A stretch of DNA of 41,168 bases from the NCBI GenBank assembly GCA_015061525.1, contig SUWK01000011.1, forward strand, positions 8,970-50,137. The letters are read 5' to 3'. This document shows positions 27,661 through 31,453 of the stretch, one piece after another; within the stretch, counting starts at the first letter, position 1; every line of letters starts with the position of its first letter. The stretch comes from Lentisphaerota bacterium. Its GTDB lineage: Bacteria; Verrucomicrobiota; Lentisphaeria; Victivallales; Victivallaceae. The notes under the pieces are model-generated. The model did no database searches and had not been told where the DNA came from. It was given only the letters and a program-made list of their open reading frames with translations. The translations under genes were made by a program, and so were the position numbers.

Positions 27661-27664
27661 TTTT

Positions 27665-28330
27665 ATGAAAAAAATATTGCTTATATTTGCATTCAGTGCA
27701 TTGTGCCTCTCTGCTGCAGAAAAATTTTCGGTGTCCTTTGCCCGGGGAAAATGGAACCCGGCAGATTTTCAGGTAGTGAAAAGTCCCCGCTTTGACAAAG
27801 TGGAAAATTTCACCCAGCAAAGCGACCACATCGCCAACATGGTTCCGCCGGAATTGGCAAATAAAGCATCTTTGAGCTGTGCCGATTCATACTGTGCGCT
27901 GCTGACGGCGAAAAAATTTACCGGAAACATCACCATTTCCAGCAAAATGAGCTTTGACAAACGCATGGCTCCTCTGATCGTCATTGCCCCGGAACTCGGC
28001 AAAAGTGCCGATGGCAAACATCCTGAACTGCGCGATCACTACGAGATCGTCCTCTATGATCTGGGAATCAACGTCTGGCATCACCGTTACATCAACGGCA
28101 AACCGGCATGGTACAAACTTGCGTACATACTTGCACCATACAAACCCCAAACAATTTATGATCTTACCGTTTTTCTCAAACACACCGTCAAAGGGCCGCA
28201 AATGGTGATCAAATGTGACGGCAGAGAATTCGGGGCAGCCATGCCGGTGGAGTTCAAAGCGACCGAATATTACGTCGGTATCATCGGCTGTGAAGGTGTC
28301 AACCGTTTTTACGATTTCAAAGTGAGGTAA
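27665..28330 (+). CDS. Secreted concanavalin/LamG-like protein
   Basis: A 221-residue exported protein (signal MKKILLIFAFSALCLSAA). The mature part is a single beta-sandwich with features of LamG/DUF1080-like sugar-binding folds: alternating strands, YEIVLYDLGINVWHHRYI in the middle, MVIKCDGREFGA near the end and a final FYDFKV strand. No catalytic residues can be named. The start at 27665 begins the signal peptide and lies only 4 nt after the GH20 stop, with AAGGA upstream. It may bind the same amino-sugar glycan outside the cell. Confidence 0.68.
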   Translation: MKKILLIFAFSALCLSAAEKFSVSFARGKWNPADFQVVKSPRFDKVENFTQQSDHIANMVPPELANKASLSCADSYCALLTAKKFTGNITISSKMSFDKRMAPLIVIAPELGKSADGKHPELRDHYEIVLYDLGINVWHHRYINGKPAWYKLAYILAPYKPQTIYDLTVFLKHTVKGPQMVIKCDGREFGAAMPVEFKATEYYVGIIGCEGVNRFYDFKVR

Positions 28331-28334
28331 TACG

Positions 28335-28820
28335 ATGAAACTCTCATCCAAAGGCAGAAAAAAACAATGTAAGATGTCCAAGCTCATTGCCGCAGGTATT
28401 CCGCTTGCGGCAATGCTCTCTGCCGGAGCCAATGCCGCCGAAGTAAAATACCGAGCCGATGTCCGCGGCAAAATGCTCCTGACAGAACCGGACAGAAGAA
28501 AATATCACACCGTCAAACCGGATGAGAATTTGAGTATTATCGCAAAAAAATACCAGACTACAGTAAAAAAACTTTGCGAATTGAATAAATTTACCCCGGA
28601 ACAGGCAAATAAGATTTTTCCCGGACAGAAAATCCTGATCCCGCAGGAAAGCAGCAAATCTGCCGGAAATACGGCTAAAGAGGAAAAAAATGTTCTGCCG
28701 ATGGGGGTTCTGCCGAAGGGGGTTCCGCCGAAAAAAGATAATTCAACTAACGAAAAAAGTGTACTACCTATGCCGGTAGGGCTGATTATGCTGCCGGAGG
28801 GTAAAACGGGACACAAATAA
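28335..28820 (+). CDS. Secreted LysM protein with LPxG-rich repetitive tail (candidate radical-SAM substrate)
   Basis: A 161-residue protein. GAGGT lies 7 nt before the ATG. Residues 1-35 are a long-n-region signal peptide with a hydrophobic core ending AGANAA. Residues 57-103 are one LysM domain (YHTVKPDENLSIIAKKYQ, then FPGQKILIP), which binds peptidoglycan GlcNAc. The tail 104-161 is low-complexity with a repeated core: VLPMG at 120, VLPKG at 125, VLPMP at 143, LPEG at 153. It overlaps the following radical SAM gene by one base (TAATG), a sign of tight coupling. Modification of the tail by the radical SAM enzyme is a hypothesis; the sequence shows only the pairing and the repeats. Confidence 0.75.
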   Translation: MKLSSKGRKKQCKMSKLIAAGIPLAAMLSAGANAAEVKYRADVRGKMLLTEPDRRKYHTVKPDENLSIIAKKYQTTVKKLCELNKFTPEQANKIFPGQKILIPQESSKSAGNTAKEEKNVLPMGVLPKGVPPKKDNSTNEKSVLPMPVGLIMLPEGKTGHK

Positions 28821-29650
28821 TGAAACTGCCGCCGGATATAACGTTGGAAGTGACTGCGAAGTGCAACTTTGCCTGTCCTTTCTGTTATTGTGTATGGCAT
28901 GAATCCACCGCTCCCCCGCCCAAGGATATGTCTGCAGATGAATGGAAAAAAATCCTTGATCTGTGCGCTGAACACAAGGTTAAAAGTGTTACCTTTTCCG
29001 GGGGTGAAGCGTTGTTGAGAAAAGATCTTCCTGAATTGATCACTTATGCAAAGGAAGTCTTGCCCCAAGCCGTTCTCGGGGTTTTCACCAACAACTCCCG
29101 CATGACGGAAGAGTTTTTCTTTTTCTGCAAAGAAAATAAAGTCCTTTTATCCACTTCGCTGCAGGGGCTGCAAAGTTACGGCATGATGACCGGAACCAAA
29201 CGGAAATATCACCGCACCTTGAAGCTGCTCACATTCGCCGCTGAAAATGATTGGCGTTTTTCCGTAAGTTTGACCGCAACGCAAGCTAACAAACATGAAT
29301 TTGCCGATATGTTCTGCGCGTGTGCCGTTTCAGGAGTTTCCCATATATCCATGGGACCGGTGATGGTTCAGGGCAGAGGCAGAAACCATATAGAACTTGC
29401 CCTCTCATGGGAAGAGTGGGATACGCTGAAAAAACGCATCCGGCAACTGCCCAACGGCAATACTCCCTACAGTTTCAGTGATGAAATGCTCTGTATCTGC
29501 CGGGAACAACCGGCAGAACTGCTCGCCCGTTTTGCCGGAACGCAGCATCCCCCCTGCCCTGCCGGCAAAAACTTCGGCGTCATCTCTCCGGACGGCAAAT
29601 TCCGCCAATGTCTGCATACTGTAAAAGAATTTGAAATATCCGGCTTTTGA
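28820..29650 (+). CDS. Radical SAM enzyme with truncated SPASM domain
   Basis: A 276-residue radical SAM protein. C15-x3-C19-x2-C22 (KCNFACPFCYC) binds the 4Fe-4S cluster that cleaves SAM, and TFSGGEALLRKDL is the SAM-binding GGE motif. The C-terminal segment C246-x12-G-x4-C264 is exactly the first half of a SPASM domain. The second half (the Cx2Cx5Cx3C group) is absent: the protein stops 12 residues later at ISGF. Peptide-modifying SPASM enzymes use these extra clusters. The gene is coupled to the LysM gene and ends close to a repeat-rich intergenic region, so the end may have been lost by rearrangement. A natural short form is also possible. Confidence 0.82.
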   Translation: MKLPPDITLEVTAKCNFACPFCYCVWHESTAPPPKDMSADEWKKILDLCAEHKVKSVTFSGGEALLRKDLPELITYAKEVLPQAVLGVFTNNSRMTEEFFFFCKENKVLLSTSLQGLQSYGMMTGTKRKYHRTLKLLTFAAENDWRFSVSLTATQANKHEFADMFCACAVSGVSHISMGPVMVQGRGRNHIELALSWEEWDTLKKRIRQLPNGNTPYSFSDEMLCICREQPAELLARFAGTQHPPCPAGKNFGVISPDGKFRQCLHTVKEFEISGF

Positions 29651-29924
29651 TACAAATTTTTTGGGAAAAAAGGCATTTTTTTACTTTTTGTTAATGTCCC
29701 AAATTTTGTGATGGGATGAGTTGTTTGACAAAAGTGCATCTTTTCCTTTATTTTTTAATAACCAGGGTTTTTGCCAAGCTTCTTTTCAAAAGCGTTTTTT
29801 GCTTTGCATTATGGTCAATCCCGCGCCTTGCTGGCGTTGCTCGCGCAGTCACATACATAGTATGCTCCTTTGCTTGCTCCTTGCAAAACCCGGGCTTGCC
29901 GCATACTGCTGTGCAAAAAATAAA
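29651..29924. repeat. Repeat-rich non-coding region after the radical SAM gene, first part
   Basis: AT-rich sequence to about 29760, then the first hairpin module (GCCAAGCTT at 29773 with CTTTT-C-AAAAG). A GC-rich segment follows with CGCC/GGCG pairing, and AGTATGC (29859-29865) is complementary to GCATACT (29901-29907). No coding sequence is supported: readable frames are short, repetitive and without homology I recognise. No standard terminator is visible for the radical SAM gene. Confidence 0.6.
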
Positions 29925-29990
29925 TCGATCAAGCCGCGATATCGGAGCGGCGCGACGGTTCGCTTTCTTTGCCAAGCTTTCCCGTGAAAG
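29925..29990 (+). repeat. Composite hairpin repeat, partial copy 1
   Basis: Starts TCGATCAAG, then a CCGC...GCGG hairpin, GCGACGGTTCGC, TTTGCCAAGC and a final hairpin shortened to CTTTC-CCGT-GAAAG (29977-29990). The order is the same as in the fuller copies at 30021 and 40811. Degenerate compared with them. Confidence 0.75.
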
Positions 29991-30020
29991 AAACATTCAC
30001 GCGGATGTTACTCCACTGAG

Positions 30021-30126
30021 TTTTTTGCCAAGCTTTTTTCCCAAAAAAGCGTCGATCAAGCCGCGACATCGGAGCGGTGCGACAGTTCATTTTCTTTGCC
30101 AAGCTTTCTTTTTTGCAAAAGAAAGC
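30021..30126 (+). repeat. Composite hairpin repeat, full copy 2
   Basis: Three modules in order. First is GCTTTTTT-CCC-AAAAAAGC (30032-30050). Next, after GTCGATCAAG, is CCGC-9 nt-GCGG (30061-30077). Last, after a GCGAC...TTTGCCAA link, is GCTTTCTTTT-TTGC-AAAAGAAAGC (30103-30126), a perfect 10-bp stem. Each terminal hairpin is introduced by GCCAAGC. The preceding TGTTACTC also recurs before the copy at 40811. Confidence 0.85.
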
Positions 30127-30178
30127 GGGCGCGACGGTTCGCTTTCTTTGCCTAGCTTTCTTTCCCGCGAAAGAAAGC
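30127..30178 (+). repeat. Composite hairpin repeat, partial copy 3, overlapping the hisD 3' end
   Basis: A link with GCGACGGTTCGC is followed by the hairpin with left arm GCTTTCTTTC (30155-30164), loop CCGC and right arm GAAAGAAAGC (30169-30178). Before it the usual GCCAAGC reads GCCTAGC; the T at 30153 makes the TAG stop codon of hisD on the minus strand. The hairpin itself encodes the last residues of hisD. Confidence 0.85.
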
Positions 30179-31453
30179 GGTGCGGATAGTTCCGGCTCTG
30201 CCGTGAGCGTCGAGCTGTTCCATCGCGCCGAAACGGGCAATTATGTCAGCATCCCTGCGTAACGCCGCTTCTGTATATTTCACCAAACTGGTACGACGAT
30301 AGAAACTGACCGTTTCCAAGCCGTTGAACTTTTTAGCACTTCCGGCGGTCGGCAGCACATGTGACGGTCCAGCACAGAAATCTCCGCAAGATTCCGGTGT
30401 CCACTGTCCGAGGAAAATCGCTCCGGCTGCCGTAATCATCTTTGCGACCCGCTCCGGATTTTCCGTCTGGATCTCCAAATGCTCCGGTGCATAACTGCTC
30501 GCAACTTCAGCTGCAGTCTTTTCATCGGGAACCGCGATCAGAAACACTCCGTTGGCAAGGACTTTGTCGATCGTCGCCTGACGTTTCAACGTATCACGCT
30601 GGCGCAACACTGCCGCTTCCACTTTATCCAGCATCGTACGGTCAGTGGTAACAAATACCGCCTGCTCCAAACCGCTGCCGTGTTCAGCCTGACTCAACAA
30701 GTCCGCTGCCGCAAATTCCGGATCAGTGCTTTTATCACCAATAACAAGTATCTCCGATGGTCCTGCAACCAAGTCGATTCCGACTTCACCATACAACAGC
30801 TTTTTCGCTGCTGTAACATAAGCATTTCCCGGTCCGCAGATCTTCTCAACTTTTTTGATACTCTGCGTACCGACTGCCAGTGCAGCAACTCCGTAAACTC
30901 CGCCCAGACGCCAAATCTCGGTAACTCCCGCCTGGAGCATAGCATACATCACCGCCGGATGAGTGTTTCCGGGAGGAGTGATCGCCACGATCTCCTTCAC
31001 TCCGGCTGCTTTAGCTATGCCGGCAGTATGGAGAACCGTGGAAACCAACGGCGCAGTTCCACCCGGAATATAGACTCCCACGCGTTCCATCGGAGTAAAC
31101 TTCTCTCCGACTTTGACTCCCGGGCGCACCCCCATCATCCAGTTGCGCGGCTTGGTAAGTTTGGCAAACTGCTGAATTTGTTTCAATGCTCTGCGGATGG
31201 CAAGTTTATCTGCCGCCGGTAACGCCGCCGCGATCTTGCGCGCCTCGCTCAAAGGCAGCTGAAACTCTGCCGGAGTCAGCTTCGCACGGTCAAATTTTTC
31301 GGCAAATTCCGCAACTGCCTCATCACCTCTGGCACGGACAGCATCAATGATCGTCCGCGCCGACACCTCCGCTTCCGGAGGAAATGCCGGACGCTCATAC
31401 AAAGAACGCAGTGCTTTTTCAAATCCCGGTTCCCCGTAAACCAGTTTATACAT
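30152..31453 (-). CDS. hisD: Histidinol dehydrogenase
   Basis: A 433-residue enzyme that oxidises L-histidinol to L-histidine through histidinal, using two NAD. Family signatures are all present: GVYIPGGTAPLVSTVLH, KICGPGNAYVTAAKKLLYG, IDLVAGPSEILVI, DLLSQAEHG, and YAPEHLEI with the conserved Glu and His. Zn ligands are expected at Gln/His of SQAEHG and in the region around SCGDFCAGPSHVLPT. AGGTG lies 5 nt before the ATG at 31453, 11 nt after the panC stop. The last residues (AFFRGKES) and the stop codon come from the composite repeat, replacing the normal C-terminal end of similar length. It is the last gene of the ilvE-panC-hisD operon. Confidence 0.96.
   Translation of the reverse strand: MYKLVYGEPGFEKALRSLYERPAFPPEAEVSARTIIDAVRARGDEAVAEFAEKFDRAKLTPAEFQLPLSEARKIAAALPAADKLAIRRALKQIQQFAKLTKPRNWMMGVRPGVKVGEKFTPMERVGVYIPGGTAPLVSTVLHTAGIAKAAGVKEIVAITPPGNTHPAVMYAMLQAGVTEIWRLGGVYGVAALAVGTQSIKKVEKICGPGNAYVTAAKKLLYGEVGIDLVAGPSEILVIGDKSTDPEFAAADLLSQAEHGSGLEQAVFVTTDRTMLDKVEAAVLRQRDTLKRQATIDKVLANGVFLIAVPDEKTAAEVASSYAPEHLEIQTENPERVAKMITAAGAIFLGQWTPESCGDFCAGPSHVLPTAGSAKKFNGLETVSFYRRTSLVKYTEAALRRDADIIARFGAMEQLDAHGRAGTIRTAFFRGKES

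Follow-up and report, generated by a model that had tools for sequence, protein, structure and literature searches.

Most known peptide products of radical S-adenosylmethionine (SAM) enzymes are small free molecules. Pairing such an enzyme with an exported partner is already known as a general idea, since NCBIfam holds the models TIGR04133 and TIGR04134 (rSAM_w_lipo and lipo_with_rSAM), which by their names describe a radical SAM/SPASM protein and a lipoprotein. In both sequence and predicted fold, the solved structure closest to the enzyme reported here is that of SkfB (the sporulation killing factor sactisynthase, PDB 6efn), a maturase of ribosomally synthesized and post-translationally modified peptides (RiPPs). 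In SkfB, a CxC motif follows helix alpha2' (CX33CXC) (PMC6231123). We analyzed a 41,168-nucleotide stretch of DNA from a Lentisphaerota bacterium (contig SUWK01000011.1, positions 8,970 to 50,137), hereafter the window, in which the gene for a LysM protein and a radical SAM gene overlap by a single base (TAATG at 28818-28822). An earlier interpretation of this DNA, the original prediction, had placed the two open reading frames (ORFs) and their overlap correctly and proposed that the enzyme modifies an LPxG-rich tail which the LysM domain then holds on peptidoglycan. With a probability of roughly 0.75, we read the locus as one case of a recurrent pair, in which a partner protein combines a leader with Gly-centered modules, and a radical SAM enzyme likely recognizes that leader and modifies the modules ahead of the partner's predicted export and anchoring in the envelope.

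The enzyme and a leader-type partner recur as a pair in two families of one phylum. Orienting 53 loci by the enzyme gene gave 50 distinct ones, 41 of which belong to the core clade (tblastn score of at least 220 bits); nine distant or fragmentary loci (L040, L041, L156 to L159, and L183 to L185) were left out of that count. In 30 of the 41 core loci, an intact leader-type partner lies upstream on the same strand, bearing out the view that the two genes in the window are a real pair. The leader of these partners reads M-K-L-S-K-K...Q-R-x-I...A-S-G-K-x-L-G-G-L-L-x-G or a relative of that, and the distance from partner end to aligned enzyme start runs from -31 to 100 nucleotides (within 37 in 27 of the 30). 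In the sister genome G001, the genes follow the window's order: hexosaminidase, a 221-residue protein, LysM protein, and radical SAM enzyme. Among the leader-type partners that were scanned, the only Pfam or NCBIfam matches are LysM-type ones and a weak one to NF058595 (E = 0.011, L144). A profile search that scored only candidates sharing most words found 454 metagenomic partners at E <= 1e-5; we read the best 120 by script, which dereplication reduced to 33. Many of the genomes are fragmentary, and many locus flanks extend just 1.5 kb. The neighbors read are those of the loci above; a further 76 distant matches (L047 to L122, among the best 80 kept out of 217) lie beyond them, as do, with the exception of L157, 19 distant-clade matches without a locus (E = 5e-38 to 3e-59).

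The other 11 core loci differ among themselves. Three (L155, L161, and L176) have a leader-type partner that is cut by a contig end. Another three (L036 in G017, L037 in G013, and L160 in G409) have a different upstream protein, ending in two N-x-x-N-E...Q-G modules and with no visible signal peptide; those of L036 and L160 weakly match a LysW-like zinc ribbon, under the Pfam cut-off. Could proteins of this kind be a cytosolic variant of the substrate? The last five, in G015, G018, G248, G355, and G388, have no partner, including downstream, where one was sought by eye. At L145 (G355), L148 (G388), and L150 (G248), in three genomes of another family, the partnerless enzyme gene lies between gpsA and a gene for a lipoprotein-like alpha/beta-hydrolase, the Pfam basis for the latter coming from L148.

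Beyond the leader, the partners share a module of the form N-x-x-N-E...x-G-x...P, usually in several copies per protein. Examples are NAVNEKRRRNSAVRGKYPAEP from L168, a lipobox partner with three Gly-centered modules, NRVNESKNLHVRGKIRLKK from G001, NRKNESALQPTVGRTMSPPK from G361, and NSTNEKSVLPMPVGLIMLPEGK from the window. We counted it in 33 partner bodies, namely the 30 linked to core enzymes, L156, and two orphans, with leader and LysM excluded; L156, from the distant or fragmentary set, is a locus whose lipoprotein has similar cores. The density of N-x-x-N-E was 14.9 sites per 1,000 residues in these bodies, compared with 0.09 across the 931 control ORFs taken from those loci, a roughly 165-fold contrast against mechanical ORFs of at least 150 residues rather than annotated genes. 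If anything, this contrast is understated, because the controls include two of the zinc-ribbon partners. At least one site occurs in 24 of the 33 bodies and at least two in 11. A Gly follows the Glu by 4 to 14 residues at all 41 partner sites, compared with 19 of 29 control sites (Fisher, P = 5e-5). After dereplication, 27 bodies retained 32 sites in 19 proteins, versus a mean of 0.66 and a maximum of 5 in shuffled sequences, and in the 33 dereplicated metagenomic partners a Gly lies within 14 residues of N-x-x-N-E at 53 of 53 sites. A first Gly-centered core, lacking N-x-x-N-E, comes after the lipobox or signal peptide. It resembles TMGRFPDP in lipoprotein relatives, and module 1 of the window, with VRGKMLLTEP, occupies the same place; P0206 has VTGKM there, retaining G-K-M. 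Gly-centered modules stand on both sides of LysM in the window.

The conserved repeat is N-x-x-N-E...G and not LPxG. The strings VLPMG, VLPKG, VLPMP, and LPEG named in the original prediction are all present in the tail; a conserved LPxG or VLPMG core is ruled out by the tail of G001, which has no LPxG, by P0205, a 95%-identical metagenomic protein with one VLPMG unit fewer than the window, and by the origin of the motif in a 15-bp tandem repeat. With G001 and P0205 differing in this way, the VLPMG/VLPKG doublet is variable and probably young. Of the proposed target, what stands is that the enzyme likely modifies the partner's repeats. The tail had also been expected to be conserved beside enzyme homologs and a LysM neighbor to be found at most of them, and neither is the case: the window's tail is not conserved, and most enzyme loci have no LysM. 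Taken literally, both findings go against the proposal, but the idea of modification survives in altered form because the leader, N-x-x-N-E, and Gly are conserved. The original prediction is thus partly supported, being right in outline and wrong in detail.

Leader and enzyme also co-occur at the level of whole genomes. Among 78 genomes from the window's family (f1), a profile of the leader alone (50 positions) matched strongly in 6 (E <= 2.6e-13), and among 114 from a second family (f39) it did so in 27 (best E <= 8.8e-17 per genome), with the line between strong and weak drawn after the gap was seen, the next genomes standing at 1.7e-4 and 1.8e-4. In the window's family, the leader was found in 6 of 13 genomes with the enzyme (E <= 1e-35) and in none of 65 without it (Fisher, P = 6.7e-6). 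In f39, it was found in 25 of 27 core-enzyme genomes (E <= 1e-80) versus 2 of 87 others (P = 1.2e-20) or, at the looser enzyme cut-off of 1e-35, in 26 of 35 versus 1 of 79 (P = 5.1e-17), with none of the three tests corrected for kinship. Of the 6 f1 and 25 f39 genomes, 5 and 13, respectively, supplied leaders to the profile and therefore match it by construction; the real test lies in the other 13 matches together with the near-empty enzyme-free genomes. The two core-enzyme genomes lacking a leader match (G434 and G493) have partners cut by a contig end, and G452, with a leader and no core enzyme, has its partner at a contig end; G457, also without core enzyme, carries an orphan leader. Of the weak matches in genomes without a strong one (E of 1.7e-4 and worse), those of three genomes were inspected: the ORFs at G008 and G483 resemble unrelated lipoproteins, and no partner-like ORF under 400 residues was seen at G402. 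Chance neighborhood, with an ordinary LysM protein next to an unrelated radical SAM gene, is suggested by how common LysM is and by the many enzyme loci without it, but we give it next to no weight, because the leader family and the enzyme track each other across genomes and lie side by side, in two families and in changing genomic surroundings.

More than one strong leader ORF was present in 6 of the 27 f39 genomes with strong matches (those of G350 at contig ends), and full second partners occur in G480 and G427. Several leader ORFs per genome fit one enzyme serving several substrates. They also bear on whether the enzyme acts instead on some other protein or envelope molecule, for which the partner would be a recruiting adaptor or scaffold. 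Such a role would suit the 5 of 41 core loci that lack a partner, three of them sharing the lipoprotein hydrolase neighbor. However, further partners sit away from any enzyme gene in the flanks that were read, N-x-x-N-E and Gly are kept in the modules over large distances, and a cytoplasmic adaptor has no need of a signal peptide, all of which makes this role quite improbable.

The original prediction called for a full-length homolog of the enzyme, but the enzyme in the window is already full length, because homologs have the same length and the same end (258 to 292 residues in 77 of 84, versus 276 here); truncation was therefore ruled out. Its Radical_SAM domain lies above the Pfam cut-off (E = 1.4e-17), and the three motifs described earlier, CxxxCxxC, GGE (residues 61 to 63), and C246-x12-G-x4-C264, were all found. 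CxxxCxxC occurs in 82 of the 84 homologs and CxxxCxxCYC in 81, while the C-terminal pattern CxC-x(14-19)-C-x17-C-x-H is present in 80, the four exceptions being fragments. Among 71 aligned enzyme sequences, C225, C227, C246, C264, and H266 are invariant; we predict from this conservation that they are ligands of one auxiliary Fe-S cluster. The arrangement is of the Twitch type, whose hairpin reads C-x(9-15)-G-x4-C, with the C246-x12-G-x4-C264 hairpin and C225-x-C227 in place and no second SPASM half before the protein ends at 276. The enzymes of L158 and L159 form a distant clade and are longer, with a SPASM-like Cys cluster at the end of L158. They adjoin proteins in which a G-A-M-C-Y motif precedes an apparent zinc ribbon, and L159 has three such proteins close together.

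The enzyme's predicted fold is closest to SkfB. SkfB carries a RiPP recognition element (RRE), but the 276-residue enzyme has none: its predicted model begins at the barrel, and SkfB aligns only from residue 103. In the window, CxC precedes the C-x12-G-x4-C hairpin, whereas in SkfB it comes after helix alpha2' (CX33CXC) (PMC6231123). Scores are far below the respective cut-offs for TIGR04403, the SkfB-type sactisynthase (63.5 bits versus 300), for TIGR04133 (47.1 bits, or 46 in a second scan, versus 425), and for NF047865, the ranthipeptide maturase PapB (52.7 bits versus 340), and the score for NF038283, prokaryotic viperin, is also below its cut-off. TIGR04134 had no match at E = 0.01 in the window's genome, nor in nine partner-side proteins that were scanned; in control genomes it matched in 2 of 14, never above its cut-off. 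The pair resembles TIGR04133 and TIGR04134 in general idea but differs in that LysM can serve as anchor and in the repeated N-x-x-N-E...G modules of the partner. The substrates of SuiB (a streptide-type cyclase) and EpeE/YydG (a peptide epimerase) are not known to contain modules of this kind.

A thioether product like that of SkfB would be a natural expectation, given that SkfB is the closest solved structure in both sequence and fold and that 18 of the 33 partner bodies contain one Cys or more outside the lipobox. A sactisynthase, however, needs a donor Cys in the core peptide, and the modules of the window have none. With 15 of the 33 bodies likewise free of Cys besides the lipobox, and with the TIGR04403 score so low, a thioether is unlikely as the general product and, for the pair as a whole, very hard to credit. 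Unlike the SkfB system, window-type partners have no obligatory Cys and look exported and anchored. A C-C, C-N, or C-O link or an epimerization would fit these sequences better.

The original prediction gave the LysM domain a central place. The domain is genuine (PF01476), and it likely does serve as an envelope anchor; it is not a defining part of the family. Of 30 intact core partners, 12 have LysM and the other 18 only a lipobox, which rules LysM out as the hallmark. Across the 33 bodies, 21 have only a lipobox, 7 both, 5 only LysM (those of the window, G001, G361, G427, and G428), and none neither (Fisher, P = 0.003), with lipobox and LysM called by simple pattern and signal peptides read by eye or in the same way. 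The corresponding metagenomic counts are 24, 8, 0, and 1; the one exception, P0156, fails both patterns because it is annotated as starting 24 residues ahead of the usual MKL, putting the lipobox beyond the pattern's range. When LysM is mapped as a label onto a maximum-likelihood tree of 38 enzyme sequences, it requires 7 changes, 4 of them forced by well-supported branches, and is more clustered than chance (shuffled mean of 10.5; 4 of 500 as low). These changes make LysM and lipid look like alternative anchors that were swapped repeatedly, so that, unlike in plain LysM proteins, LysM would be one of two options in this partner family.

The anchors also bear on whether the modules are excised and set free as modified peptides, such as signals or antimicrobials, with the envelope protein as their delivery form only. 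Each partner does carry several short modules, the N-x-x-N-E spacer could be a protease site, and modules vary between close relatives by eye. Yet all 33 partners retain an anchor motif, for which a released product would have no use. Furthermore, no other neighbor gene family occurs in more than 3 of the 30 loci (many with flanks of just 1.5 kb; ORFs of at least 80 residues; the clustering grouped 13 of the 30 partners), and hence no dedicated protease, transporter or other exporter, or RRE protein was seen beside the pair, where a small or diverged gene could escape. Release is therefore unlikely, although it is the strongest of the competing accounts.

Under our preferred reading of leader-guided modification, the overlapping enzyme gene would be translated together with that of its partner. 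In the window, the leader MKLSSKGRKKQCKMSKLIAAGIPLAAMLSAGANA consists of a long conserved n-region and a signal peptide without lipobox; judged by eye, its N-terminus predicts export and suggests an AxA-type cleavage site. We propose the n-region as the recognition element that the enzyme binds; no RRE is fused to the enzyme, and none was seen beside the genes. Modification would take place in the cytoplasm, prior to Sec export. Gly is the residue that is kept, and its alpha-carbon hydrogen is readily abstracted in radical SAM chemistry, so the reaction is expected at the conserved Gly or its neighbor. The Sec system would then export the modified partner, and LysM in the window, or a lipid elsewhere, would keep the product attached to peptidoglycan or membrane.

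A proposed modifying enzyme next to a gene that encodes a conserved leader and variable repeated cores makes the pair a candidate RiPP system in the broad sense. More tentatively, and at somewhat less than even odds, it may represent a new class of peptide arrays that are radical-modified and displayed on the envelope, defined by a stand-alone, RRE-free enzyme with an unusual CxC-C-C cluster, undescribed chemistry at x-G, and many, often Cys-free modules. In the metagenomic set, module content differs by eye among close relatives, as if shuffled; together with exchange of the anchor, such shuffling could produce a changing display. Candidate roles of the product are display, defense, adhesion, or released peptides. 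If this is correct, the substrate would be a lasting, multi-module part of the cell envelope and the system a new bacterial way to display chemically altered peptides on the surface. It would also add a peptide-modification system to the window's bacterial group and might bring to light chemistry at a glycine motif that does not depend on Cys. No description of such a system, in general or in that bacterial group, appeared among the matches listed in the openly licensed literature. Several modules, a clear leader, and one partner enzyme make the proposal readily testable by co-expression and mass spectrometry. Table 1 gives the positions of the features.

Table 1. Features of the partner and enzyme genes, in window coordinates
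Feature	Position	Strand	Remarks
LysM partner gene (proposed precursor)	28335..28820	+	161 residues; export predicted by eye
Conserved leader MKLSSKGRKKQCKMSKLIAAGIPLAAMLSAGANA, residues 1-34	28335..28436	+	From alignment; leader-profile match at E 2.6e-13 in its own genome, this leader being one of the profile's 18 rows
Gly-centered module 1 ADVRGKMLLTEP, residues 41-52	28455..28490	+	Upstream of LysM, outside the tail
LysM domain, residues 58-103	28506..28643	+	PF01476, 47.8 bits versus cut-off of 20.9, E 1.4e-12
Degenerate module 2 NTAKEEKNVLPMGVLPKGVPPKKD, residues 112-135	28668..28739	+	P0205 is one unit short
15-bp tandem repeat encoding the VLPMG/VLPKG doublet	28692..28732	+	TRF score 68, 2.7 copies
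Module 3 NSTNEKSVLPMPVGLIMLPEGKTGHK, residues 136-161	28740..28817	+	Canonical N-x-x-N-E...G module
Radical SAM enzyme, 276 residues	28820..29650	+	SkfB-like predicted fold, without N-terminal RRE
CNFACPFCYC (C15, C19, C22, plus C24), SAM-binding cluster motif	28862..28891	+	Homolog counts
C225-x-C227...C246-x12-G-x4-C264-L-H266, predicted to ligate one auxiliary Fe-S cluster	29492..29617	+	Conservation

A gene for a 222-residue protein (27662-28330) without a Pfam family lies directly 5' of the LysM gene and follows one for a GH20 hexosaminidase; in the neighbor clustering of the 30 loci, only its counterpart in G001 was grouped with it. Between the radical SAM gene and hisD lies a high-copy dispersed repeat (29740-30190), and the ORF at 29716-30189 is probably not a gene. 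An 80-base probe from this repeat (29920-29999) matches the window's own genome at 54 sites or more, counted from 40 scored candidates of 134, several of them near contig ends.
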